From assembly GCF_000378045.1 (NCBI RefSeq), contig NZ_KB899121.1, positions 1 through 33,220 of the forward strand: a stretch of DNA of 33,220 bases. The letters run 5' to 3'. Below, in pieces: positions 12,950 to 30,473 of this stretch; the first letter of the stretch is position 1, and every line of letters begins with the position of its first letter. This DNA comes from Marinobacterium rhizophilum DSM 18822 (GTDB lineage: Bacteria > Pseudomonadota > Gammaproteobacteria > Pseudomonadales > Balneatricaceae). The position numbers were made by a program, and so were the translations under genes. The notes under the pieces were generated by a model. That model searched no databases. It had not been told where the DNA came from and was given only the letters and a program-made list of their open reading frames with translations.

Positions 12950-13870
12950 ATGAAAATTCAAATACTGGGTTCGGCAGCAGGGGGTGGCTTCCCACAGTGG
13001 AACTGCAATTGCCATAATTGCAGCGGCCTGCGTAACGGCACCCTGAATGCCAAGGCGCGCACTCAATCTTCTATCGCGGTCAGCGCCAATGGCACCGACT
13101 GGATTCTGTTCAACACCTCTCCGGATATTCGCGCTCAGCTCGAATCCTTCGCCCCCATGCAGCCGGCACGCGCCCTGCGTGATACGGGTATTGCAGCCAT
13201 TGTCTTCATGGACAGCCAGATCGACCATACCACCGGCCTGCTGATGTTGCGCGAAGGTTGTCCGCACCAGGTCTGGTGCACCGACCGAGTGCAGGATGAT
13301 TTAAGCCAGAGTTTTCCTCTGTTCAACATGCTCAAGCACTGGAACGGTGGAATCGACTGGCACCGTATCGGTGTTGAACCCGGCAACAGCAGCTTCGTTA
13401 TCGACCGGGTGCCGGAATTGACCCTCACCGCCGTGCCCCTGACAAGCAGTGCACCGCCTTATTCGCCGCACCGCAGCGATCCGCACCCCGGCGACAATAT
13501 CGGCATGCTGATTACCGACAGTCGCAGCGGCAAGTCGCTGTTCTATGCCCCGGGCCTGGGCGTGATTGAGCCGCACCTGCTGCCGTTCATGCAGGAGGCC
13601 GACTGCCTGCTGGTGGACGGCACGCTCTGGAACGACGATGAAATGATTCGTGCAGGCGTGGGTACCAAGCTCGGCCGCGATATGGGTCACCTGGCCATGT
13701 CCGGCGAGAGCGGCATGGTTGCGTTCCTGGATACTTTAGAAAAGCCGCGCAAGGTATTGATTCATATAAACAATACCAACCCGATTCTGGATGAAGACTC
13801 CGCCGAGCGGGCGGAACTTGAGCGCCATGGCATCGAGGTATCCGAGGACGGCATGTCCATCGAGCTGTAG
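12950..13870 (+). CDS. pqqB: PQQ biosynthesis protein PqqB
   Basis: A 306-residue metallo-beta-lactamase-fold enzyme of PQQ synthesis, thought to hydroxylate the Glu-Tyr intermediate before PqqC. The N-terminus [20 protein letters not shown] followed by CHNC, a zinc-binding Cys pair set, is diagnostic. [17 protein letters not shown] replaces the classical HxHxDH and is normal for Pqq[34 protein letters not shown] and [11 protein letters not shown] follow, and the usual length of about 304 is met. Second gene of the pqq operon. Confidence 0.97.
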
Positions 13871-13926
13871 TCAGCGGGTTCTCACCCGGCAAGCCTTTAC
13901 CATAAAAACAACGCGGAGGCGGTGCG

Positions 13927-14703
13927 ATGAACAGTTCCGTACAGCAGCTAGCAGACCAGACACCCCTGACGCCTGAAGCCTTTGAGGCGGCATTACGGGC
14001 CAAGGGCGATTACTACCATATCCACCACCCCTTCCACCGTGCCATGCACGAGGGCACCTGTACGCCTGAACAGATTCGCGGCTGGGTGGCGAACCGTTTC
14101 TACTACCAGATCAGCATCCCGGTGAAGGATGCCGCGATCATGGCTAATTGCCCGGATCGCGAAACCCGCAGGCTCTGGGTCCAGCGTGTGCTGGACCATG
14201 ACGGCTACGACGGCGGCGAGGGAGGTATCGAAGCCTGGCTGCGCCTGGGTGAGGCTGTGGGTCTTACCCGCGCAGAAATTCTGTCCCAGGAACATGTGTT
14301 GCCGGGCGTGCGCTTTGCAGTCGATGCCTACGTGAACTTTGCGCGCAGGGCCAGCTGGCAAGAAGCCGCCAGCTCGTCTCTGACCGAGCTGTTTGCGCCG
14401 ACCATCCACCAGTCGCGCCTGTCCAGCTGGCCCCAAAACTACCCGTGGATCGATGCCGATGGCTACCAGTATTTCCGCAACCGCCTGACCGAAGCGCGGC
14501 GCGATGTCGAGCATGGCCTGGTGATCACACTGGCGCACTACAAGACCCGGGCAGAGCAGGAACGCATGCTGGAGATTCTGCAGTTTAAGCTCGACGTGCT
14601 CTGGAGCATGCTCGATGCCATGACCATGGCCTATCAGCTCGACCGCGCGCCGTACCATACGGTGACGGACAAGCGGGTTTACCACCGGGGGCTTTTCTCA
14701 TGA
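13927..14703 (+). CDS. pqqC: Pyrroloquinoline-quinone synthase PqqC
   Basis: A 258-residue cofactor-less oxidase that carries out the final ring closure and eight-electron oxidation giving PQQ. Typical PqqC sequence is seen throughout: [79 protein letters not shown] and [25 protein letters not shown] lies just before the ATG at 13927. It overlaps pqqD by 4 bp (ATGA), indicating translational coupling. Confidence 0.97.
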
Positions 14704-14969
14704 GTGTTCAACGCATACCGGGGTTTAATCCCATGTTTCGCCTGCAGTGGGAAAAGGCGCAGGACAGCTACGTGCTGCTCTATCCCGAGGGCATGATCAA
14801 GCTCAACCCGAGCGCCGGCGAGATTCTGGCGCGGGTGGACGGCCAGCGCAGTGAAGCCGAGATAACCGCGGCGTTGCAGCAGGCCTTTCCCGATGCCGAC
14901 TCCCTGGCGGGTGATGTGCGCGAATTTATGGAGGTGGCCCGTGAACAGAACTGGATCCGTTTCCTCTAG
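14700..14969 (+). CDS. pqqD: PQQ biosynthesis peptide chaperone PqqD
   Basis: An 89-residue RiPP recognition element protein that binds PqqA and presents it to PqqE. Family features: the initial [40 protein letters not shown] and the helical [15 protein letters not shown]. The C-terminus [15 protein letters not shown] ends inside the pqqE gene, with a 29-bp overlap. Confidence 0.96.
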
Positions 14970-18341: not shown

Positions 18342-19412
18342 CTAGTTAAGGTCGCTGGCGTAGCTTTTCTCGATGGTCTGTTCCGCCGCGGCGGATTCAC
18401 TGGCCAGCAGATCGAACCACTTTTCACCGTCCTTCACGTTGCCCTTGAACCAGTTGTAGACGGGTTCGGCCGCTTTTTTGAACGCGTCCTTCTGCTCGGG
18501 TGTGGGCACATAGACTTCGCCACCGGCGGCGCTGAATTCCTGGTAGGCCTTGATGGACTTGCGCTTGGGCGAGGCAAAGGTGGCCTGCTGCAGCGCCGAG
18601 AAGCCGTCTACGATCACGCGGCGCATGTCTTCCGGCATGTTCAGAAAGCTCTCGTTGTTCATGAACCAGTAGGCGGACATGTAGGCATGGCCATCCAGGG
18701 TGATGTACTTGAGCCCGGCTTCGGGGAACTTCATGCTCATGATGTCGGTAATGCCGTTCTTGGAACCTTCCACCACGCCGGTCTGGAACGAGGTGAAGAG
18801 TTCCGGCCAGGGGATCGGCGTCGGGCTGGCGCCCAGCGACTTCACCAGTTCCTGGGGCAGGTCCGATACCACGGTACGGATCTTCAGGCCCTCGATATCC
18901 TTGGGTGTCTTGATGGTGTGTTTGGTGTTGGCAAAGTTGCGCCAGCCGCCGGTGTTGCCAATGGTCATCAGGCGTACCTGATTGTCGGAGTCTTCAAGAA
19001 TGGACTTGCGCAGTTCGCGGGTGAAGTTGCCGGACAGCACGGTTTCGGCGACGCGGTCATCGCGCAGCAGGTAGGGCAGGTCCAGCACCTGGACATAGGG
19101 GAACATGTTGCCCACGCCGCTGGCGGTGGAGATGAACACGTCCACGGAGCCGTCTTCCAGCGCCTGCATGCACTCGGTGCCGTTGGCGCACAGCTGGGTA
19201 CCGATATACAGCTCCACGCCGATCTTGCCGTTGGAGTGGGCCTCGACGAAGTCCTTGAACACCACCAGGCCGTCGTAGTCTTCGTCGTTTTCGTTGGAGT
19301 TGGCCACTGCCCGCAGGTTGAACTCGGCGGCGGAACTGAGCGCGCCGAACAGCAGGGTGGCGCCCGCCAGAGTGCCCACCAGGGCAGACTTCAGGGTTTT
19401 GTTGATCACCAT
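18342..19412 (-). CDS. TRAP transporter substrate-binding protein (DctP family)
   Basis: A 356-residue periplasmic binding protein. Residues 1-28 form a signal peptide (VGTLAGATLLFGALSSAA), with cleavage likely before Glu30. The DctP fold is clear: FNLRAVANSNENDEDYDGLV, MQALEDGSVDVFISTASGVG, GGWRNF, and GLKIRTV with Arg179, the position that normally forms the salt bridge with an organic acid ligand. Then come WPELFTSFQTGVVEGSKNGI and the AYWFMNNESFLNMPEDMRRV tail. Cys75 and Cys81 may form a disulfide. Start at 19412 has GAGGAT upstream. Last gene of a Q-M-P operon. From the neighbours its ligand is probably an anionic sugar, with sulfoquinovose or its glycerol glycoside as best guess; this is inference. 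Confidence 0.93.
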   Translation of the reverse strand: MVINKTLKSALVGTLAGATLLFGALSSAAEFNLRAVANSNENDEDYDGLVVFKDFVEAHSNGKIGVELYIGTQLCANGTECMQALEDGSVDVFISTASGVGNMFPYVQVLDLPYLLRDDRVAETVLSGNFTRELRKSILEDSDNQVRLMTIGNTGGWRNFANTKHTIKTPKDIEGLKIRTVVSDLPQELVKSLGASPTPIPWPELFTSFQTGVVEGSKNGITDIMSMKFPEAGLKYITLDGHAYMSAYWFMNNESFLNMPEDMRRVIVDGFSALQQATFASPKRKSIKAYQEFSAAGGEVYVPTPEQKDAFKKAAEPVYNWFKGNVKDGEKWFDLLASESAAAEQTIEKSYASDLN

Positions 19413-19453
19413 GTGTAGATCCTCTTGCTTCTTCTTGTGGGTGGGGGGCTGCA

Positions 19454-20740
19454 TCAGGCGAGCCCGAGCCATCGGGGGATGGTCATGGACAGCGCCGGGA
19501 AGAACGTAATCAGGAAAATGACCACGATCTCGATGAACAGGAACGGCAGTATGGATTTGGCAATGGCTTCGACCTTTTCGCCCGACACGCTGGAGGCGAC
19601 AAAGAGCACCAGGCCCATGGGCGGCGTTGCCAGCCCCACGGTCAGGTTGACGCTCATGATGATGGCGAAGTGAATCGGGTCCACACCGATGCCGATAAAG
19701 ACCGGTGCCAGGATAGGCCCCAGAATGATGATCGCGGGGCCGGCATCCAGGAACATGCCCACCACGAACAGCAGTATGTTGATCATGAACAGCAGTATCA
19801 GCGGGTTGTCGCTGATGGTCAGTACCCAGCTGGCCAGCTGTTCGGCGGTATGGGACAGGCTGACCACGGTCTTGAACGCAATGGCCGCACCCACCAGCAA
19901 CAGCACCACGGCGGACGACTGGGCGCTGCGGGTGAAGATTCCCGGCAGTTCCTTGATCTTTACCGTCTTCATGACCCAGATGCTCAGCACCAGGGCATAG
20001 CCCACCGCAATGGCCGAGGCTTCGGTTGGGGTAAAGATGCCGCCCAGGATACCGCCCAGAATGATAACGGGCGTCAGCAGCGGCAGGAACGCACTCTTGG
20101 TGGCGGTGGCCCGCTGTGGCCAGCTCTGTTTGGGGCCGGCCACCGGGAAATCATATTTCTTGGCCATCAGGGCAATGACCGCCATCAGGCCGAGCCCCAC
20201 CAGGATGCCGGGCACCACACCGGCGGCGAAGAGTGCCGCCACCGACACTTCCATGGTGTAGGCGTAGATAATCATGATGCCTGAGGGCGGAATGATCGGC
20301 CCGATCACCGACGAGGCGGCGGTGATGGCGGCCGAGAAACGCCGGGTGTAGCCGTTTTTCTCCATGGCTGGAATCATCATGGAGCCGATGGCCGAGGTAT
20401 CCGCCACGGCCGACCCCGAGAGTCCGGCGAAGAGCATGCTCGACAGCACGTTGACGTGGGCCAGGCCACCGCGTACATGGCCGATAAAGGCCTGCGAGAA
20501 GTTGACCAGGCTGAGGGTGATGCCACCGCGGTTCATCAGTTCGCCCGCCAGCATGAAGAACGGAATGGCCATCAGCGGGAACGAATCGATGCCGTTATAG
20601 ATATTGCGAAACAGCATGGGGATATCCCGCTCCATGCCCTGGGTCATGAGCAGAATACCGGGGGCCGACAGCATGGCGAAAAACACCGGCATGCCGATCA
20701 GCAGGAAAATCAGGAACAGCGGCAGGAATAATACGAGCAT
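19454..20740 (-). CDS. TRAP transporter large permease (DctM family)
   Basis: A 428-residue inner-membrane protein with about 12 hydrophobic segments, the sodium-driven translocation subunit. Family signatures: LLIGMPVFFAMLSAPGILLM at the N-terminus, PFFMLAGELMNRGGIT, HVRGGLAHVNVLSSMLFAGL SGSAVADTSAIG, MIPAMEKNGYTRRFSAAITA and SSVIGPIIPPSGIMIIYAY, then ILLFVVGMFLDAGPAIIILG and VGLATPPMGL. Length is standard. It lies between the Q and P genes with short gaps on both sides (14 bp to the Q gene and 41 bp to the P gene). Confidence 0.95.
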   Translation of the reverse strand: MLVLFLPLFLIFLLIGMPVFFAMLSAPGILLMTQGMERDIPMLFRNIYNGIDSFPLMAIPFFMLAGELMNRGGITLSLVNFSQAFIGHVRGGLAHVNVLSSMLFAGLSGSAVADTSAIGSMMIPAMEKNGYTRRFSAAITAASSVIGPIIPPSGIMIIYAYTMEVSVAALFAAGVVPGILVGLGLMAVIALMAKKYDFPVAGPKQSWPQRATATKSAFLPLLTPVIILGGILGGIFTPTEASAIAVGYALVLSIWVMKTVKIKELPGIFTRSAQSSAVVLLLVGAAIAFKTVVSLSHTAEQLASWVLTISDNPLILLFMINILLFVVGMFLDAGPAIIILGPILAPVFIGIGVDPIHFAIIMSVNLTVGLATPPMGLVLFVASSVSGEKVEAIAKSILPFLFIEIVVIFLITFFPALSMTIPRWLGLA

Positions 20741-20754
20741 GATGCGTGATCCTT

Positions 20755-21312
20755 TTATTCGGCTTCCGGGAGGGACGAGGCGTCGAGCTCAGGCGCCGGG
20801 AACTCGTCTTTGCGCCCAAACAGGCGCCCGACTTCCCGTAACAGCAGTTCGGCATTGACCAGCAGCATGCTGCCAAAGCACACCGGCATGGCCAGATAGA
20901 TCCAGGCCCGGGACAGGTTGAAGGAGGCGGCTCGGGTGCGAAAACCACGCTGAAAAAATTCCAGCCCCAGGCTGAACAGCTGTATCAGTACCAGCGCCGA
21001 TATCAGCAGCAGGAAAAACTTGAGTACGGCCGTTGCCCGGGGGGGCAGGAAGCCATGCAGCATGTCGATGGCGACAAAGGACCCCTGGCGATAGGCATTG
21101 GCTGCCACCAGCGCCATCATCCAGATCATCAGTGCGCGGGCTGCTTCCTCGGGCCAGGGCAGGGCGTTGTTGAGTACGTAGCGGCAGAAGACCTGTAGCA
21201 GAATGCAAAGCACCATGGCGGCGACACAGATCCAGGCCACTGACTTGCCAATGCGAATCATCACCGCATTGATGAGTTCCAGCCAGCCAAGACAGAACTT
21301 GAGTATTTTCAT
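20755..21312 (-). CDS. TRAP transporter small permease (DctQ family)
   Basis: A 185-residue protein with four membrane helices. The DctQ signature is VFCRYVLNNALPWPEEAARA then LMIWMMALVAANAYRQGSFV and AIDML. The ATG at 21312 was preferred to a GTG at 21366 because family members start just before the first helix. The C-terminal tail FGRKDEFPAPELDASSLPEA is charged. First of the three TRAP genes, 105 bp downstream of the aldo/keto reductase gene and probably cotranscribed with it. The gap holds a hairpin GGGCACC-GCAAG-GGTGCCC (21361-21379) without a T run. Confidence 0.9.
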   Translation of the reverse strand: MKILKFCLGWLELINAVMIRIGKSVAWICVAAMVLCILLQVFCRYVLNNALPWPEEAARALMIWMMALVAANAYRQGSFVAIDMLHGFLPPRATAVLKFFLLLISALVLIQLFSLGLEFFQRGFRTRAASFNLSRAWIYLAMPVCFGSMLLVNAELLLREVGRLFGRKDEFPAPELDASSLPEAE

Positions 21313-21417
21313 GAGCTGCCACACCCTTTTATTAAAATTATTCAGGGGTTCAGTTTTAGAGGGCACCGCAAGGGTGCCCCGGAATCTCTGACAGAGTCGG
21401 ACGTTAAGGGTACTGGC

Positions 21418-22320
21418 TCAGGGAACTTCCTGGCCGGATGCCGCGCTCCAGAGTTCGAACCAGGTTTCCCGGTCAATGCGGATATCGCAGGCGCCGGACA
21501 GCGCGCGCACGCGTTCGATATTGTTGGTGCCCACCACTGGCATGATGCCGGCCGGATGGCTCATCAGCCAGGCCAGGGCCACGAGGTCCGGGCTGCTGTT
21601 ATTCTGCTCGGCGAGCCGGCGCAGCAGCGGGCGCAGCCGCTGCGCAGCGGGGGAGTCGCCAAACAGGGCTCCACCTGCCAGCGGCGACCAGGCCATGGCG
21701 GCCAGACCGTCCAGTTGCATGCTCGCCAGGGTGCCGTCGGTAAAGGCCTCGCGCTGCAGCAGGTTCATTTCAATCTGGTTCACGACCAGACGGTGTTTCA
21801 TGTGCTGCTGCAGCAGGCGCCAGTCCCAGTGCATGAAGTTGGATACGCCAAGCGCCCGGACCTTGCCGCTATCGACCAGGGCATCCAGTGCCGCGCCGGT
21901 TTCTGCCGCATCCATAAAGGGATCCGGGCGGTGAATCAGCAGCAGGTCGAGCTGTTCGCTGTGCAGGTTGGCCAGGCTGGTATCGACGCTGTTGCGGATA
22001 TAGGCGGCGCTGGTGTCGTAATACTTTACGCGCCGGCCGGGAAAGGTATCGGACACCAGGGCGATATCGCATTTGCTGACCAGCTGCATTTGCTGGCGCA
22101 GTGTGGGATCGGCGGCCAGTGCCTGCCCGAACAGGGCTTCGCAGCGGTAGTCGCCGTAGATATCGGCATGATCAAACGTGGTGATGCCCTGTTCCAGGCA
22201 GGTATCGATCTTGGCGCGCACGTTTGCCACCGAGGTATCGGCATCGTCCGCCAGACGCCAGACGCCGTAGACCAGTCGGCTGAATTCAACACCGGTATTG
22301 CCAAGCTGCACTTTTTCCAA
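21418..22320 (-). CDS. Aldo/keto reductase (YdhF/SmoB-like), candidate 6-oxo-glucose reductase
   Basis: A 300-residue NAD(P)H-dependent (beta/alpha)8 reductase. The tetrad is seen as Asp50 and Tyr55 (TTFDHADIYGDY), Lys83 (VSKCDI) and His130 (LLLIHRPDP). The sequence runs close to E. coli YdhF: GKVRALGVSNF, VVNQIEMNLLQ, LAAMAWSPLAGGALF and GIMPVVGTNNIERVRAL. The start is taken as TTG 22320, giving MEKVQLGNTGVEFSRLVYG with TGGAG upstream; GTG at 22347 is the alternative. It leads the TRAP operon and is divergent from the GntR gene. In sulfoquinovose monooxygenase clusters an AKR (SmoB) reduces 6-oxo-glucose to glucose; the same job fits here with the dioxygenase nearby, but that substrate is inferred from context only. 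Confidence 0.88.
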   Translation of the reverse strand: MEKVQLGNTGVEFSRLVYGVWRLADDADTSVANVRAKIDTCLEQGITTFDHADIYGDYRCEALFGQALAADPTLRQQMQLVSKCDIALVSDTFPGRRVKYYDTSAAYIRNSVDTSLANLHSEQLDLLLIHRPDPFMDAAETGAALDALVDSGKVRALGVSNFMHWDWRLLQQHMKHRLVVNQIEMNLLQREAFTDGTLASMQLDGLAAMAWSPLAGGALFGDSPAAQRLRPLLRRLAEQNNSSPDLVALAWLMSHPAGIMPVVGTNNIERVRALSGACDIRIDRETWFELWSAASGQEVP

Positions 22321-22462
22321 GGGATTCGGTCTCCACGTTTTTTGCACTTGCCGGCGCTACCGGCGAGGCAGGAAAATTCTTGTTGTCCGGTACCCCCGAC
22401 TGCGCAACGGGTTGCAGCCAGGTTGGTAGCCGATGTTGCACTCACCCTATCAGCGTATTCTA

Positions 22463-22476
22463 TTGATGTAAATCAA
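22463..22476. promoter_or_regulatory. FNR/Anr box
   Basis: TTGAT-GTAA-ATCAA matches the FNR/Anr consensus TTGAT-N4-ATCAA at all ten defined positions. It lies in the divergent promoter, about 104 bp before the GntR start and 143 bp before the AKR start, touching the GntR operator. It predicts oxygen control of one or both transcripts. Confidence 0.65.
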
Positions 22477-22489
22477 TCATGCATGAATT
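22475..22489. promoter_or_regulatory. Putative GntR operator, copy 1 (AKR-TRAP / gntR divergent promoter)
   Basis: AATCATGCATGAATT is the exact reverse complement of the site at 24788-24802 before the dioxygenase gene. Its core TCATGCATGA is a perfect palindrome. It overlaps the FNR box by two bases. Confidence 0.7.
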
Positions 22490-22490
22490 G

Positions 22491-22520
22491 TTGTGCTTTA
22501 TCGGTCAGGACCGGTATATT
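22491..22520 (+). promoter_or_regulatory. Candidate gntR promoter
   Basis: A -35-like TTGTGC (22491-22496), an 18-bp spacer and a -10 TATATT (22515-22520). An inverted repeat CGGTC-AG-GACCG (22502-22513) fills the spacer and may be another operator. Confidence 0.45.
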
Positions 22521-22579
22521 GCAATTGTCCCCTGATAGTTCATTGGGCCATTACGTGTACGGACACTGAGGAATCACGG

Positions 22580-23299
22580 GTGTTAACAAACCAAAAATCC
22601 AAAAAACTGCCCCTGTATATCCAGATCGGCGAGCTGCTGCACCGCGAGATCGCCGCCGGTCACTGGCAGCCGGGCGAGCGCCTGCCGGTCGAGTCGGAGC
22701 TGGCCGCCAGCCTCAGCGTTGCCGTGGGAACGCTGCGCAAGGCACTGGCCAAACTGGAAGGCGATGGCCTGCTGGAACGCCGGCAGGGCTCGGGTACCTA
22801 CGTCAAGCGCGCGCCGACCGGCACCGCCATCTATCAGTTTTTCCACCTGGAGCTGCTCGGCGGCGGCGGCGTGCCCCGCGCCGATACGCTGGCCGTTTCG
22901 ATGGTGCAGTCAGCGGAGGTGGCGCAGCAACTGGAAATGGACTATCTCGAAGCCAAGCTTTGGTCAATCCGGCGTCGACGCTACCTCAACAATCTGCCGG
23001 TGGCGGTGGAGGAAATCTGGATTGATCATCGCCACAGCGACAGCCTGAGCGCCGACGATCTGCACGAGTCGCTGTACATGCACTACCGCGAGGTCTTTGA
23101 TTTCTGGATCGGCCGGGTTGAAGACCGGATCGACTGTGCCATCGCGCCGGACTGGGTTACCGAACAGCTGGGCCTGCCAGCAGGCACCATTCTGGCGCGG
23201 GTCGAGCGCAAGGGCTGGTCCAACAGTAACCAGGTGGAGGAGTTTTCGCGCACCTGGTTTGATCCGCACAAGTGCCGCTATTTCGCCCGCTGGTCCTGA
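22580..23299 (+). CDS. GntR family transcriptional regulator (HutC/UTRA type)
   Basis: A 239-residue regulator. The winged HTH occupies about residues 10-75: LPLYIQIGELLHREIAAGHW, QPGERLPVESELAASLSVAV and LEGDGLLERRQGSGTYV. A UTRA effector domain follows (about 90-235), ending RVERKGWSNSNQVEEFSRTW FDPHKCRYFARW; UTRA domains usually bind sugars, amino acids or sugar phosphates. The GTG start at 22580 has GAGGAA at 22568-22573. It stands in the middle of the gene cluster, and a related palindrome is found before all three cluster transcripts, so it most likely represses the AKR-TRAP operon, itself with the Gfo/Idh gene, and the dioxygenase. Sulfoquinovose clusters in other bacteria also carry GntR/HutC-type regulators. 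Confidence 0.92.
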   Translation: MLTNQKSKKLPLYIQIGELLHREIAAGHWQPGERLPVESELAASLSVAVGTLRKALAKLEGDGLLERRQGSGTYVKRAPTGTAIYQFFHLELLGGGGVPRADTLAVSMVQSAEVAQQLEMDYLEAKLWSIRRRRYLNNLPVAVEEIWIDHRHSDSLSADDLHESLYMHYREVFDFWIGRVEDRIDCAIAPDWVTEQLGLPAGTILARVERKGWSNSNQVEEFSRTWFDPHKCRYFARWS

Positions 23300-23329
23300 G
23301 GTCGGCAGGGGGGGAATTCATATATCAAT

Positions 23330-23346
23330 GATTCATGTCATGAATC
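23330..23346. promoter_or_regulatory. Putative GntR operator, copy 2 (before the Gfo/Idh gene)
   Basis: GATTCATG-T-CATGAATC is a perfect 8+1+8 palindrome, 141 bp before the oxidoreductase start. The half-site matches the sites at 22475 and 24788/24803. Confidence 0.75.
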
Positions 23347-23487
23347 CTTGGAGCACCATACCGGCGCCGCTTCCTGCTAGTGGCGGCGTGGCCAGGTCCG
23401 GCCTGCAGGCCGGTGATTGAGGAGGCGACCAGCGGTGGCCTCACTGATGTTGTCTACAGCAATAATAAAAGTGGAGAGCGATTACTT

Positions 23488-24612
23488 ATGAGCAAGGTTG
23501 TCAGATACGGTCTTTTGGGCTGCGGCATGATGGGGCAGGAGCACCTGCGTAACCTGGCGCTGATCGAGGGGGCACAGGTGGTGGCCATTGCTGAACCCGA
23601 TGCACAGATGAAGCAGCAGGCCGCGAGGCTGGCACCTGATGCCATCATGCTGGATTCCATCGACGAGCTGTTGCAGGTGCCGGGGCTGGATGCTCTGGTG
23701 GTGGTTACCCCCAACTACCAGCATGCGGAACAGCTGCTGGCCATTCTGGCCAACACTCAGCTTGCCGTGCTGATTGAAAAGCCAGTCATTACCCAGCTGG
23801 AGCAGGTCGCGGCGATCAGGCAGGCGGCCGAACGCCACTCGGCGCCGCTCTGGGTCGCCATGGAATATCGCTACATGCCGCCGATCACGGCGCTGCGCAA
23901 GCATCTGCAACAGGGCGATGTCGGCGAACTGAAGATGCTCAGCGTGCGGGAGCACCGCTTCCCGTTCCTCGAAAAGGTCAACGACTGGAACCGTTTCAAC
24001 CGCAACACCGGCGGCACCCTGGTGGAGAAGTGCTGCCATTTCTTCGACCTGATGCGTCTGCTGGCGAATGACGAGGTGGTACGCGTCTACGCCTCGGCCG
24101 GTCAGGACAATAACCATCTTGATGAAGCCTACAGCGGCGAGCGTCCCGACATTCTGGACAATGCCTATGTAGTGCTGGATTTTGCCAGCGGCAAAAGGGC
24201 CATGCTGGAGCTGAACATGTTTGCCGAAGGTTCACGCTATCAGGAAGAGATCTGTGCCATCGGACCGCTTGGCAAGCTCGAGTGCTTCGTGCCGGGTCCC
24301 GGGCGCTTCTGGCCCGAGGAAACCCTGGGGGCGGCGCCGGTGGCGCGGGTGGTGCTGAGTCCGCGTGAACCCAAGGGGCCGATCGAGGCCGAGATTCCGG
24401 TGGACCCCAACATACTGGCGGCCGGGGACCACAATGGATCGACCTACTACCAGCACCTGGGGTTCTATCGCGCCCTGACCGAGGGCACGGCGGTGGATGT
24501 CACGGTTGATGACGGGCTCAAGGCCGTAGTGATCGGCCTGGCGGCCCAGCATTCGGCGGCCACCGGCAAGGCGGTAACCCTGACGGATGCCGGCTTCTCA
24601 TTCGAGCGCTGA
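23488..24612 (+). CDS. Gfo/Idh/MocA family NAD-dependent enzyme (oxidoreductase or GH188-type glycosidase)
   Basis: A 374-residue protein with an N-terminal Rossmann domain (YGLLGCGMMGQEHLRNL, glycine motif G-x-G-x2-G at about residues 8-14) and the family's EKP motif (LIEKPVITQLEQ). The catalytic-region helix reads GGTLVEKCCHFFDLMRLLAN, with the conserved His/Asp after a Lys-Cys-Cys not usual in sugar dehydrogenases. The C-terminal part is the mixed beta-sheet substrate domain. ATG 23488 with GGAGAG upstream was chosen over the longer frame from 23380. Besides sugar dehydrogenases, this fold includes NAD-dependent glycosidases, among them the GH188 sulfoquinovosidases. With the dioxygenase and AKR next door, a sulfoquinovosidase role (freeing sulfoquinovose from its glycosides) is the best hypothesis; a plain inositol- or glucose-type dehydrogenase remains possible. 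Confidence 0.87.
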   Translation: MSKVVRYGLLGCGMMGQEHLRNLALIEGAQVVAIAEPDAQMKQQAARLAPDAIMLDSIDELLQVPGLDALVVVTPNYQHAEQLLAILANTQLAVLIEKPVITQLEQVAAIRQAAERHSAPLWVAMEYRYMPPITALRKHLQQGDVGELKMLSVREHRFPFLEKVNDWNRFNRNTGGTLVEKCCHFFDLMRLLANDEVVRVYASAGQDNNHLDEAYSGERPDILDNAYVVLDFASGKRAMLELNMFAEGSRYQEEICAIGPLGKLECFVPGPGRFWPEETLGAAPVARVVLSPREPKGPIEAEIPVDPNILAAGDHNGSTYYQHLGFYRALTEGTAVDVTVDDGLKAVVIGLAAQHSAATGKAVTLTDAGFSFER

Positions 24613-24623
24613 TACCGGCGTGG

Positions 24624-24649
24624 GGCCCGGACAGATGCCGGGCCTTTAT
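24624..24649 (+). terminator. Probable terminator after the Gfo/Idh gene
   Basis: GGCCCGG (24624-24630), loop ACAGATG and CCGGGCC (24638-24644) are followed by a short TTTAT. Confidence 0.65.
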
Positions 24650-24870
24650 AAACCTGATGATGCAATACTTGTAGATAAAAAATACTTATATTTCAGTTGG
24701 ATAGAGTTTTCTTATGATCTTGGGTTAATAAATTCATTTACAATTGATTTACTTTTAATTTGTCCGTTGCTAAGGTTGGTCTTACTAAATTCATGCATGA
24801 TTGATTCATGCTTGGTCGAACCCTGCTCGACATCTTCAAACCCTGCCTGCTAACAACAAGAGTCGTAATC
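24650..24870 (+). promoter_or_regulatory. AT-rich promoter region of the dioxygenase gene
   Basis: From about 24650 to 24800 the sequence is strongly AT-rich against a GC-rich background. A weak -35/-10 pair TTGTCC (24760-24765) and TACTAA (24783-24788), 17 bp apart, lies directly before the operator. No gene is seen here. Confidence 0.4.
24788..24810. promoter_or_regulatory. Putative GntR operator, copy 3 (before the dioxygenase gene)
   Basis: AATTCATGCATGATT (24788-24802) is the exact reverse complement of copy 1, and an extra half-site GATTCATG follows at 24803-24810. It lies 60-80 bp before the dioxygenase start. Confidence 0.7.
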
Positions 24871-25851
24871 ATGAGCATCAGTTTTTCCAGCGTAGACGGT
24901 CAGAAACAGGTCAACGGACTCGACTTTCCCCTGGTGGTCGTTCCCCAAGATGATGCAACGGCATACCGCAGCCAGGCGGTGAATGCCTGGGTGCACGAGA
25001 ACCGGGTGCAGCTCAAGGATCTGCTGATCCGCCATGGGGCAGTGCTGTTTCGCGGTTTTGCGGTGCCCGACGTGCAGGCGTTTGAAGACATGCTCAACGC
25101 GACCGACTTTCAGAACATGCCCTACATCGGCGGCGCGGCGCCGCGCAGCCAGGTGACGACCTCGCGCATCGTCACCGCCAATGAATCCCCGGCCTCGGAA
25201 AAAATTCCGTTCCACCATGAAATGGCCCAGGTGCCGACGCCGCCGGGTTATATTTTCTTTTACTGCGATGTGGCATCCGAGGAAGGCGGGGCCACCTCGA
25301 TTCTGCATTCCGGTGAGATCTTCAGCAGGATCGAGCAGTTTGCACCTGCGTTTGCCCACAAGATCGAACAGCAGGGCGTGCGTTATGTGCGCGTGATGCC
25401 GGCGGTAACCGACACGGAATCCGCCATCGGGCGTTCCTGGAAGGAAACCTTCAATGTCACCACGGTAGCCGAGGCCGAGCAGAAAATGACCGAGGCTGGC
25501 ATGAACTGGGAATGGCTGCCCGATGGCAGTGTGCGTACGCAGACAGCGGTGCTGGATGCGGTACGTTTCGATGAGGAAACCGGCCAGAAGGTGTTTTTTA
25601 ATTCCATCGTGGCGGTCTATACCGGCTGGAACGATGCCCGCAATGAGGGCAAGACCGCCGTCGTGACCGCGGATGGCGAACCGATGGATGAGGCAGTGAT
25701 CGATGAAGTGGTACGCCAGATGGACAAGGAATGTGTCAACTTCAAATGGCAGCACGGTGATGTGCTCTGGATCAACAACCACACCGTGCTGCATGCACGC
25801 CAGCCCTTCAAGGGCGAGCGCAACATCCTGGCGTCTATCTCATTTAAGTAA
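24871..25851 (+). CDS. TauD/TfdA family Fe(II)/2-oxoglutarate-dependent dioxygenase, candidate alkanesulfonate (sulfoquinovose) dioxygenase
   Basis: A 326-residue cytosolic dioxygenase. The facial triad appears as His115-x-Glu117 (KIPFHHEMAQVP) with distal His308 (NNHTVLHARQPF), so a Glu replaces the Asp of TauD. Arg317 (GERNILASISFK) is positioned to bind 2-oxoglutarate. Other segments are LLIRHGAVLFRGFAVPDVQA, YIFFYCDVASEEGGATSILH and VNFKWQHGDVLWINN. HxE subgroups exist, for example SyrP-like members, so it should be active. The ATG at 24871 was chosen; codons upstream run into the operator region. By context it would oxygenate sulfoquinovose at the sulfonated carbon, giving sulfite and 6-oxo-glucose, with the AKR completing the route. 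Substrate is inferred; taurine, betaines or other sulfonates are alternatives. No sulfite exporter or oxidase is in the window. Confidence 0.88.
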   Translation: MSISFSSVDGQKQVNGLDFPLVVVPQDDATAYRSQAVNAWVHENRVQLKDLLIRHGAVLFRGFAVPDVQAFEDMLNATDFQNMPYIGGAAPRSQVTTSRIVTANESPASEKIPFHHEMAQVPTPPGYIFFYCDVASEEGGATSILHSGEIFSRIEQFAPAFAHKIEQQGVRYVRVMPAVTDTESAIGRSWKETFNVTTVAEAEQKMTEAGMNWEWLPDGSVRTQTAVLDAVRFDEETGQKVFFNSIVAVYTGWNDARNEGKTAVVTADGEPMDEAVIDEVVRQMDKECVNFKWQHGDVLWINNHTVLHARQPFKGERNILASISFK

Positions 25852-27178: not shown

Positions 27179-27963
<785 letters not shown>

Positions 27964-27967
<4 letters not shown>

Positions 27968-28641
27968 GAGAGGGTAAATCCTTCTTTCGGGAAACGACGT
28001 TCGGCCTGTCGAACCGCGGTGCTGGCGACGAGGCTCAGGGCCAGATAAATCAGGCCGACCAGCGTAAAGGGTTCCAGGTACCGGAAATTTTCGGAGCCCA
28101 TTATTTTGGCCAGTTGCAGCATTTCCAGCAGCGTGATGGCCGATAATTGCGGCGTTTCCTTGAACATGGCAATGATGTAATTGCCGCTGGCCGGTATCAT
28201 TGAGCGCAATGCCTGGGGCAGTATCACATCACGGTAGGTTCGATAGGGTGACAGGTTAAGCGCTATCGAGGCTTCCCACTGACCCTTGCCGACACCATCA
28301 ATGCCACTGCGAAACACCTCCGACAGGTAGGCGCCGTAGTGCAGTCCCAGCGCGATCACACCGGTCACCATCGGCGACATGTTCAGACCCCATTCCGGGG
28401 CCACGTAATAAAGAAAATAGATTTGCACCAGCAGCGGCGTGCTGCGGATAAATTCCATCCACCAGTAGGCGCTGTAGGCCACGGCTTTCGACTGGCTGCG
28501 GCGAAGCAGTGCCAGTATCAGGCCAGTGACAACGGCCAGGATGCTGCCGAACAGGGTTGCCTGCAGGGTGACAAGGCAGGCGTCCAGCAGCAGTGGCAGA
28601 ACTTCCCAGGCAAAGGCCCAGTCCCAGTTGAACTCGATCAC
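27964..28641 (-). CDS. ehuD: Ectoine/hydroxyectoine ABC transporter permease EhuD
   Basis: A 225-residue permease of the polar amino acid (HisMQ) type with about five helices. EhuD-like sequence: ALLRRSQSKAVAYSAYWWME, FIRSTPLLVQIYFLYYVAPE and the EAA loop GQWEASIALNLSPYRTYRDV ILPQALRSMIPASGNYIIAM. GTG start at 28641 with GGAGGAG upstream. Third gene of the ehuBCDA operon, 91 bp after ehuC. Confidence 0.88.
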
Positions 28642-28732
28642 GACGACTCCTCCATGCGCTTGCGGCTAACCGTATGGGTGAGCATTGTCTTGAGCCCGCA
28701 CGGGCCGTTCAGGTGGTGCTTGCAGGTCTGCC

Positions 28733-29392
28733 TCATGACAATCCCCCGCGCTGCATGCCTTTTCCCAGGCGTTTTTCCAGGGCGCGAATACCCAGTGTCA
28801 GTGCCTGGGCCATGAGGAAGTAGAACACCAGTACCAGGCCGAATATTTGCTCAACCTGCAGGGTCATGTCGGCCAGTGACTTGGCGCGATAGGTCAGGTC
28901 GGCAATGGTGATCAGACTGACCAGAGAGGTTGCCTTGACCAGTTCAATAGCCAGGTTGCCAAAAGGCGGCATCATGCCGACCAGTGCCTGGGGCAAAATG
29001 ATGCGCCACAGGCGCTGACGGGGCGTAAAGTTCAGCGCAATCGCCGCTTCAGTCTGTCCCTTGTCGACCGACAGCAGGCCGCCGCGGACCACTTCCGAAC
29101 CATAGGCACCGATGTTGAGCCCGAGTGCAGCGACACCGGCGGTAACGGCATCAATGCTGAGGCCAAACAGGGGCAGTACGAAGTAGATCCAGTAGAGCTG
29201 GATCAGGGCGGAGGTGCCGCGGAAAAATTCTACATAGATGACGGCGAGCCAGCGCAGCGAGCGGTGTTCGCTGATCCGCATCAGGCCGGCGGTAAATGCC
29301 ATCAGAGTCGCCAGTGGCAGCGCCATGACCACGATCTTCATCGTGATGACAGCGCCGCCCACCAAGGCGGTCAGTATTTCGGTAACAGGCAT
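28733..29392 (-). CDS. ehuC: Ectoine/hydroxyectoine ABC transporter permease EhuC
   Basis: A 219-residue permease paralogous to EhuD. Motifs: YVEFFRGTSALIQLYWIYFV, LGLNIGAYGSEVVRGGLLSV and the EAA loop DKGQTEAAIALNFTPRQRLW RIILPQALVGMMPPFGNLAI. The ATG at 29392, MPVTEILTALVGGAVITMKI, is preferred to an upstream codon at 29443 because the extra residues are not membrane-like. It lies 247 bp after ehuB; that gap holds a strong hairpin but no gene. Confidence 0.88.
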   Translation of the reverse strand: MPVTEILTALVGGAVITMKIVVMALPLATLMAFTAGLMRISEHRSLRWLAVIYVEFFRGTSALIQLYWIYFVLPLFGLSIDAVTAGVAALGLNIGAYGSEVVRGGLLSVDKGQTEAAIALNFTPRQRLWRIILPQALVGMMPPFGNLAIELVKATSLVSLITIADLTYRAKSLADMTLQVEQIFGLVLVFYFLMAQALTLGIRALEKRLGKGMQRGGLS

Positions 29393-29639
29393 CTGTCGTG
29401 TTCCTTGCCAGGCATGGCATGGCTTTGTGTGCCGCAAAACCATCTTATGTATGGCGGTGAAGCGCGGTAACGGAGGACTGTTGGCGTTTCAGCCGTGGGC
29501 CGGTCAGTGTCAGTGCGCCGACGCTAGCGGCCCCCTTAGCGGGGGCGCCATGTGTGCGCGCGGGTCCTGACGGGATCCGCCGTTATCGGGTCTGCCGGCC
29601 AGCTGCCGTTAGCTGCACGGCGGTCCGGTGGCGGGCCAT
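29393..29639. other. ehuB-ehuC gap with strong hairpin
   Basis: GCCCCC (29530-29535), loop TTAGC and GGGGGC (29541-29546) form a stable hairpin without T run. Such hairpins between a binding-protein gene and its permeases commonly protect the 3' end of the binding-protein message and raise its yield. No coding sequence is seen. Confidence 0.55.
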
Positions 29640-30473
29640 TCAGGGCTGGCACAGTTGTGCAGTGGTGACATCACCCGGCAGCGTATGGACGCCAAATCCG
29701 TAGGGTTCCACCAGGGCCAGATGCTCGTCAGTGCCGATAAAGTCGGCCAGTTGCGTGTTGAAGGCATCACGCAGGCCCTCGTCACCGGGGCGGAAACCGA
29801 AGCCGCCGTAGCCGTTAACCTTTTTGCCGTCGATGACCAGATCTTCGAAAGGCTGGGCCAGTTCTACGTCGTCACTTTTTTTGCCAAGCTCGGCCATGGT
29901 GAGCACGGTACCGGCCAGTGCGTCGATGCGGCCCGCCTTAAGGGCTGCGACACCGCTGGGGTAGTCCGGCAGGGTGACAATCTGGTCGAGGGCGATGCCA
30001 AAGTCCTTGGCATAACCGAACTCAACCGCACCGGCCATAACGCCCAGCTTGAGATCCGGTTGGGTCTTGATGTCGTCGTAGCTTTTGAGTGCCAGGGGGT
30101 TGCCGGTTTTTACCAGAAAGCCTTCGCCGATGGTGTAGGTGGGGTTGGAAAACAGGATCTGTTCACAGCGTTTGGGGTTGATATACATGCCGGCGGCGAT
30201 GACATCAAATCGACCAGCCTTGAGACCGGGAATCAGGGAGCCAAATTCAGTGACCAGCACTTCGACATCATCAATGCCCAACGCCTTGAGTGTATGCAAT
30301 GCTATTTCAGGCGCCTCGCCCTTGGCTTCTCCGTCCGAGGACAGGTATCCGTAAGGGATTTCGTTGGCCACCGCCAGTGTCAGCTTTCCCGATGCCTTGG
30401 CGTCATCCAGGGTATCGGCCAAGCCCAATGTGCTGACTAAGCCCAGTAGCAGCGCGGTCAATGTGCGTTTCAT
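29640..30473 (-). CDS. ehuB: Ectoine/hydroxyectoine ABC transporter substrate-binding protein EhuB
   Basis: A 277-residue periplasmic binding protein. Signal peptide MKRTLTALLLGLVSTLGLA, cleaved before Asp20. EhuB family sequence is strong: LAVANEIPYGYLSSDGEAKG EAPEIALHTLKALGIDDVEV, TEFGSLIPGLKAGRFDVIAA GMYINPKRCEQILFSNPTY, IGEGFLVKTGNPL and GYGGFGFRPGDEGLRDAFN. It delivers ectoine or hydroxyectoine to the EhuCDA complex. GGAGAG lies directly upstream. First gene of the operon, with an AT-rich promoter. The ectoine breakdown genes (eutABCDE) that often adjoin ehu are not in the window. Confidence 0.92.
   Translation of the reverse strand: MKRTLTALLLGLVSTLGLADTLDDAKASGKLTLAVANEIPYGYLSSDGEAKGEAPEIALHTLKALGIDDVEVLVTEFGSLIPGLKAGRFDVIAAGMYINPKRCEQILFSNPTYTIGEGFLVKTGNPLALKSYDDIKTQPDLKLGVMAGAVEFGYAKDFGIALDQIVTLPDYPSGVAALKAGRIDALAGTVLTMAELGKKSDDVELAQPFEDLVIDGKKVNGYGGFGFRPGDEGLRDAFNTQLADFIGTDEHLALVEPYGFGVHTLPGDVTTAQLCQP

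Follow-up and report, generated by a model that had tools for sequence, protein, structure and literature searches.

The stretch analysed here (hereafter the window) comprises 33,220 nucleotides of contig NZ_KB899121.1 of Marinobacterium rhizophilum DSM 18822, and the system in question is a cluster of seven genes at 18342-25851 that appears to serve the uptake and oxygenolytic breakdown of the sulfosugar sulfoquinovose (SQ). Pfam matches were obtained for all seven genes, which bears out both the positions and the families given in an earlier note made from the sequence alone: the P, M and Q subunits of a tripartite ATP-independent periplasmic (TRAP) transporter, an aldo-keto reductase (AKR; Aldo_ket_red, 1.1e-55), a regulator with GntR and UTRA domains, an enzyme with the N and C domains of GFO_IDH_MocA, and a TauD-fold dioxygenase (TauD, 1.6e-31). 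A divergent gap separates the minus-strand genes, which run outward as AKR, TRAP Q, TRAP M and TRAP P, from the plus-strand genes for GntR, the Gfo/Idh/MocA enzyme and the dioxygenase. The mechanical open reading frames of the three plus-strand genes probably start too early, and alignment to relatives and to the solved chain 9yut moved their starts to 22580, 23488 and 24871. None of the seven proteins reached an equivalog cut-off in NCBIfam.

The dioxygenase gene (24871-25851, plus strand; mechanical frame 24808-25851) is predicted to encode SqoD, an Fe(II)/2-oxoglutarate-dependent SQ dioxygenase. Its product is identical to 9yut_A at 287 of 326 residues (88%, E 1e-196), and at E 0.001 the only other solved sequence that matched was the plant protein At3g21360 (1y0z; 6e-80). 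9yut shares 94.2% identity with a Marinobacterium profundum protein and therefore derives from Marinobacterium or near it; it is presumably SqoD itself. A tree was built from 49 sequences, namely 29 core, one GPH-type and 14 second-type bacterial sequences, the plant protein, and four hydroxylases linked to nonribosomal peptide synthetases (NRPS). The window dioxygenase grouped with its 28 cluster relatives, and these fell together with the GPH-type, second-type and plant sequences, while the four NRPS-linked hydroxylases were split off by a branch with 100/99 support. The 2-His-1-carboxylate site of the TauD fold is present, with the proposed iron ligands H115-x-E117...H308 (326-residue numbering) assigned by position, and these were invariant in 29 of 29 aligned sequences. 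They were also kept in At3g21360, all 14 second-type and all four NRPS-linked sequences, so the iron site marks the superfamily and not SqoD alone. A Foldseek search with a predicted model, used for the fold only since its confidence was low at residues 86-98 and 105-122, where two of the proposed iron ligands lie, returned At3g21360 first and TauD sixth; chains 1oii and 1oij of the alkylsulfatase AtsK were among the 50 matches listed, and 9yut was not. No taurine model was found for the protein in NCBIfam at E 0.001, and grouping with taurine dioxygenases was not seen; the earlier assignment to SQ oxidation is supported for this gene.

The Gfo/Idh/MocA gene (23488-24612, plus strand; mechanical frame 23380-24612) is, judged by its solved relatives and active-site residues, a GH188 sulfoquinovosidase, predicted to be NAD-dependent. 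The best solved relatives of its product were 8zn9 (7e-142), 8qc2 (5e-116) and 8qc3 (2e-115), with the next match at 9e-22; 8qc2 and 8qc3 are reported as structures of the GH188 enzyme SqgA (PMC10755693). Nine residues named in the same paper were located on 8qc2 by shifting the numbering by a constant 13, whereby its Glu163 falls at 164, and the window protein keeps the equivalents of all nine (K107, Y136, E163/164, R166, L170, K172, E189, H193 and H321), including the sulfonate triad R166/L170/K172 that is also given in PMC11465081. The same nine residues were kept in 25 aligned GH188 proteins of related loci, and 184 of 361 aligned residues are identical between the window protein and FlSqgA. 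With SqgA structures among the nearest relatives and both catalytic and sulfonate-binding residues intact, the GH188-type reading proposed in the earlier note is supported.

The AKR gene (21418-22347, minus strand) would supply a SmoB/SquF-like 6-oxo-glucose reductase. Its best solved relatives were 7bbz and 7bby (~1e-97), followed after a gap by 4r9o (1.5e-66) and the YdhF chains (6e-66), and it is identical to 7bbz at 154 of 289 residues (53%). I take 7bbz and 7bby to be SmoB, although the PDB label of 7bbz reads aryl-alcohol dehydrogenase; on this assumption the AKR encoded near sqoD is closest, among solved AKRs, to SmoB, as had been anticipated. It is scarcely credible that the cluster is instead an unrelated sugar or inositol operon beside a taurine- or betaine-type dioxygenase. 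Gfo/Idh/MocA, TauD and AKR are generic families, and the best NCBIfam score of the Gfo/Idh protein was to inositol 2-dehydrogenase, far under the cut-off, but the nearest solved enzymes lie in or near SQ metabolism (7bbz presumably as SmoB, 9yut presumably as SqoD), and the GH188 relatives and residues together with the 9yut identity already contradict such an operon.

The remaining minus-strand genes encode the TRAP solute-binding protein of the DctP family (18342-19472; PF03480, 3.6e-57), whose translation probably starts near 19412 (MVINK..., with a signal peptide by reading), the large permease DctM (19454-20740; PF06808, 2.5e-117) and the small permease DctQ (20755-21366; PF04290, 3.3e-28), so that all three subunits of a TRAP transporter are found together. 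Across related loci with the same transporter, DctP was 69-94% and DctM 81-97% identical, and two arginines of DctP, in aligned stretches, match arginines of TRAP binding proteins that we take to contact the ligand. Among 244 genomes of the same order, the TRAP binding protein was found at at least 69% identity in seven and SqoD at at least 64% in seven, the window's own genome being in both sets, and six of the seven genomes with this binding protein also carry SqoD at that level. In the seventh (G572), TRAP M and P are the first genes seen on a contig of 8 kb. Several of these matches look, by coordinates, the same as members of the 28 related loci, and the two samples are thus not fully separate. 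The co-occurrence with SqoD would fit a sulfosugar as the cargo. In the literature records covered, SQ and a TRAP transporter were found together only for a taurine-respiring gut bacterium.

Sequence alone does not reveal what the TRAP transporter carries, and sulfite release has been reported for a pathway of sulfofucose breakdown (PMC12421959), which lends something to the idea that the same chemistry acts on another sulfosugar (e.g. sulfofucose or another 6-deoxy-6-sulfohexose), with SQ as a minor substrate. This is nevertheless unlikely: the GH188 protein has a complete SQ site, including the equivalent of Glu189, which contacts the C4 hydroxyl, and Marinobacterium is the genus of the characterised SQ dioxygenase according to a review (PMC12890257).

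The regulator gene (22580-23299, plus strand; PF00392 and PF07702; mechanical frame 22493-23299, start set by relatives) is preceded by one copy of an operator-like motif that is repeated in the cluster. A 19-base block at 22471-22489, in the gap between AKR and GntR, is found again in reverse-complement orientation at 24788-24806, ahead of sqoD; the two copies share the core ATTCATGCATGATT, at 22475-22488 on the minus strand and 24789-24802 on the plus strand. A site with one mismatch, ATTCATTTACAATT, lies at 24732-24745 (plus strand), also before sqoD, and a third operator-like site, the perfect palindrome ATTCATGTCATGAAT, at 23331-23345 (plus strand) about 150 bp before the GH188 gene; the latter was not matched at the same place in relatives. 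In the window's own genome (5,364,574 bases), the motif class ATTCATDCAYDATT had exactly two exact matches, both in the cluster, and 12 matches with up to one mismatch (three in the cluster), compared to six for a reversed control.

Over the 28 related loci and the window (537,085 bases), 51 exact matches to ATTCATDCAYDATT were found in 26 of 29 loci, none of them more than 300 bp from where GntR, GH188, SqoD, AKR or TRAP Q starts, while the reversed class had none and block-shuffled sequence gave 0.15 per set. Allowing one mismatch, 72 of 76 matches were in place and all 29 loci were covered, against four matches of the reversed class, none of them in place. The class was drawn from the 28 loci, and matches inside them are therefore partly there by construction; less circular is the lack of any exact match in the own genome outside the cluster. 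Two loci fetched later, second places in Saccharospirillum salsuginis and a Saccharospirillum metagenome-assembled genome (L089 and L090) where GH188-GntR-AKR lie apart from sqoD, each showed a single exact ATTCATTCACTATT between the GntR and AKR genes, and the rest of the fetched stretch held no copy even with one mismatch allowed. The shared operator motif that had been noticed in the window is thus real and conserved across the related loci. It ties the genes together, which again argues against an unrelated operon; GntR would bind the motif and be released by a pathway ligand.

The 28 loci were collected by scanning named genomes for close relatives of SqoD, with patterns taken from the window protein, and belong to Marinobacterium, Marinomonas, Maribrevibacterium, Saccharospirillum, Reinekea, Alginatibacterium, Vibrio, an Osedax symbiont and other Oceanospirillaceae. 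All seven genes were present in the fetched stretches of 17 loci (L002-L014, L017, L018, L022 and L029), and SqoD was accompanied by at least GH188 or the AKR in 26 of the 28. In the fetched stretches, L019 and L020 were without GntR, L021 and four Vibrio loci without the AKR, and L026 without GH188; the stretch of L028 opens at a contig end, L015 contains only SqoD, and in L016 SqoD is accompanied by another TRAP transporter (41%). Some of the missing genes were found elsewhere in the same genomes, namely GH188-GntR-AKR-TRAP on the same contig for L015, GH188-GntR-AKR on another contig for L016, and an AKR at 62% for L021.

No sulfite-handling family was found by Pfam in the seven-gene cluster, in agreement with the earlier note, and only part of the remaining open reading frames of the window was scanned. 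A YeiH-family membrane protein (PF03601) was present in the fetched stretch of 11 of the 28 related loci, called by Pfam or NCBIfam for L004 and L016 and by BLAST for the rest, with some loci ending at contig ends. A YeiE-like regulator accompanies it in three of the 11, and YeiH/YeiE-like pairs lie near sqoD or its partner genes in L016, L021, L022 and L089. In Salmonella, yeiH is reported as the main driver of sulfite resistance (PMC12880088), so its presence near these loci fits sulfite as the product. This bears on a further, very improbable alternative, in which the dioxygenase would act like AtsK and desulfate a sugar 6-sulfate ester to a 6-aldehyde and sulfate, the aldehyde then being reduced by the AKR. 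AtsK does belong to the fold family (1oii, 1oij), and the AKR step needed would be identical; YeiH, however, points to sulfite, even though its NCBIfam name is putative sulfate exporter, and the sulfonate triad of GH188 and the 88% identity to 9yut likewise argue against a sulfate ester. TauE/SafE (PF01925) was considered as a marker of sulfite export and proved uninformative, with 16 matches in the own genome (15 above the cut-off) and matches in 14 of 14 controls. Elsewhere in the own genome, a YeiE/YeiH-like pair on contig 24 is 60% and 68% identical to the L016 pair, a further YeiH-like protein lies on contig 7, contig 15 has a third, weak match that contains an internal stop, and contig 5 encodes a protein with a sulfite-oxidase dimer domain (PF03404, 6e-12; found in two of 14 controls). 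Export or oxidation of sulfite by such genes is possible, and none of them is tied to the cluster.

With a probability of roughly 92%, the window therefore holds a regulated cluster of the sulfoquinovose dioxygenase type (sulfo-SDO, or sulfo-ASDO) for SQ and probably also for its glycerol glycoside, the substrate being inferred from sequence; SqoD is indicated by the 9yut identity and the tree with the 28 relatives. The TRAP transporter would import the sulfosugar, and cytosolic GH188 with bound NAD+ would hydrolyse the glycoside to SQ. SqoD would oxidise SQ at C6 with Fe(II), 2-oxoglutarate and O2 to sulfite and 6-oxo-glucose, the AKR would reduce the latter to glucose, and genes at other places in the genome would handle the export or oxidation of sulfite. 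GntR would repress both divergent units and the dioxygenase gene via the operator they share, and a sugar of the pathway, bound by its UTRA domain, would relieve this repression. The oxygenolytic SQ cluster outlined in the earlier note is thereby supported by sequence, and the opposing pattern it had named, clustering with other dioxygenases or plain sugar dehydrogenases, did not occur.

Several points weigh against this reading. The equation of 9yut with SqoD is itself inferred, the operator form of the window (GCATG) is not the commoner one (TCACT), and the 28 loci are not independent, L020 and L028 being from one genome and L024 and L027 from one species. YeiH was absent from the window cluster and from the fetched stretches of its two nearest relatives, L002 and L003, the latter of which ends 72 bp past TRAP P, and a sigma-70 scan of 22300-24900 found no sigma-70-like promoter. 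Finally, the fetched stretches of the Vibrio loci (L023, L024, L025 and L027) had no close AKR, and the best AKR in the three Vibrio genomes searched was only 39-42% identical, so that in these bacteria 6-oxo-glucose may be reduced in another way, by a different enzyme. Terminator matches numbered two, which equals the chance level.

Weaker dioxygenase matches were read in context in 369 genomes of the class (seven at 1e-40, the window included) and the 244 of the order. The 244 order genomes gave 17 SqoD matches: the seven at at least 64%, nine at 36-40%, and one fragment. This fragment (G557:C4:222648-223028) lies in a frame of 138 residues, is 71% identical to SqoD residues 200-326 and is perhaps a truncated copy. 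The nine (L067-L075) have, in this order, an SSF symporter, a GH188-like protein, another AKR and the SqoD-like protein; L059 (42%) has GH188, the other AKR and the SqoD-like protein, and no symporter was seen alongside. L060-L063 (34-36%) have the SqoD-like protein, the other AKR, GntR, GH31 and an SSF symporter, with YeiH and a TonB receptor each in three of the four; these genes were called by Pfam on examples and by BLAST for the rest. The other AKR, tested for L059, resembles xylose and aldose reductases, and the ten GH188-like proteins of this second type (33-45% to the window's) all keep the nine residues. I take the GH188-bearing clusters to be a probable variant of sulfo-SDO that uses another reductase. 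L060's GH31 protein is not claimed as a classical sulfoquinovosidase, as its best NCBIfam score was to alpha-xylosidase (389.6 bits), compared to 175.9 for PRK10426, both under the cut-off. The operator class was absent from all 14 second-type loci at up to one mismatch. A minimal set, at L058:7902-11445 in a genome of 2.1 Mb, combines an AKR (41% to the window's), SqoD (57%) and a GPH sugar symporter; its single one-mismatch operator site is inside a neighbouring gene, and no GH188 or TRAP match was found in the fetched 19 kb.

At3g21360 stood just outside both bacterial branches in the best tree (86/70), and placing it inside either gave p-AU values of 0.217 and 0.264 in the approximately unbiased test; it and several NRPS-linked sequences were flagged as long branches. 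Its mean identity to the core group is 42%. Against the core profile it scored 330.5 bits (residues 11-328), above the three of 14 second-type sequences that were scored (264.7-291.1) and far above the two NRPS-linked ones scored (131.2 and 146.8); with the second-type profile it reached 283.1 against 311.1 for the window protein, and with the NRPS profile the two were close (197.3 and 203.5). It keeps 78 of 113 core-invariant residues and differs at 35, compared to 97 kept by L058; second-type sequences keep 67.9 on average and the NRPS-linked hydroxylases 53.5. Among the residues kept by At3g21360 is the GGAAPR stretch, which is missing from the second type. At3g21360 thus falls with the SqoD group and not with the NRPS-linked hydroxylases, which suggests a plant SQ dioxygenase. 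The wider proposal, that SqoD is one branch of a larger SQ dioxygenase family with a second bacterial branch (34-42%) and At3g21360 as its plant member, is tentative and rather more doubtful than not. A 2013 study proposed that At3g21360 might be a TauD (PMC3765361), it and SQ stand in separate tables in PMC8759178, and the titles and abstracts naming it gave no tie to SQ breakdown. GH188 homologues are named for rice, maize, barley, cacao and tobacco (PMC10755693); Arabidopsis is not among them, which counts against a complete route in Arabidopsis. If the proposal is true, plants with GH188 homologues would own a route that recycles sulfolipid head groups to glucose and sulfite.

The neighbours of the cluster in the window look functionally unrelated to it. 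To the left lie PQQ-type genes (12950-14703, Pfam), a radical-SAM gene at 14893 (by reading) and an S9 peptidase gene. To the right, genes of an ectoine/hydroxyectoine ABC transporter occupy 27179-30473, with EhuA and EhuB above the NCBIfam cut-off and two open reading frames between their genes that are permeases by reading; ehuA and ehuB also adjoin the cluster in Marinobacterium sedimentorum (L002).

Compared to the sulfo-SMO (smo) cluster of Agrobacterium, the window has an Fe/2-oxoglutarate dioxygenase in place of the flavin monooxygenase and reductase, and TRAP genes in place of the ABC-type importer found there. The products and the SmoB-type AKR are common to both, as described in PMC12890257. 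At3g21360 differs from SqoD as a plant protein to which the literature seen assigns no substrate. PMC10755693 also describes sulfo-SDO clusters in which GH188 occurs, a Marinomonas ushuaiensis protein being one of the examples given. The GH188 SqgA clusters of this paper share GH188 with the full residue set, and differ in that the word 'trap' is absent from the main text of that paper. The pathway, the dioxygenase and the GH188 link are thus already in print (PMC12890257, PMC10755693 and PMC13372026), and the last of these regards sulfo-SDO as characteristic of the families Oceanospirillaceae and Alteromonadaceae. The suggestion that the cluster could represent a system described not long ago was correct, the pathway being known from Marinobacterium aestuarii with SqoD and SquF according to the review PMC12890257. 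The window would be a clean example of this recently described marine route from an abundant sulfosugar to glucose and sulfite, to which it adds the conserved operator-like motif, new here, and a testable transporter. The system of M. aestuarii, a species of the same genus as judged by the nearest relatives, shares with it SqoD, the SmoB/SquF-like AKR and aerobic cleavage of the C-S bond (PMC12890257).

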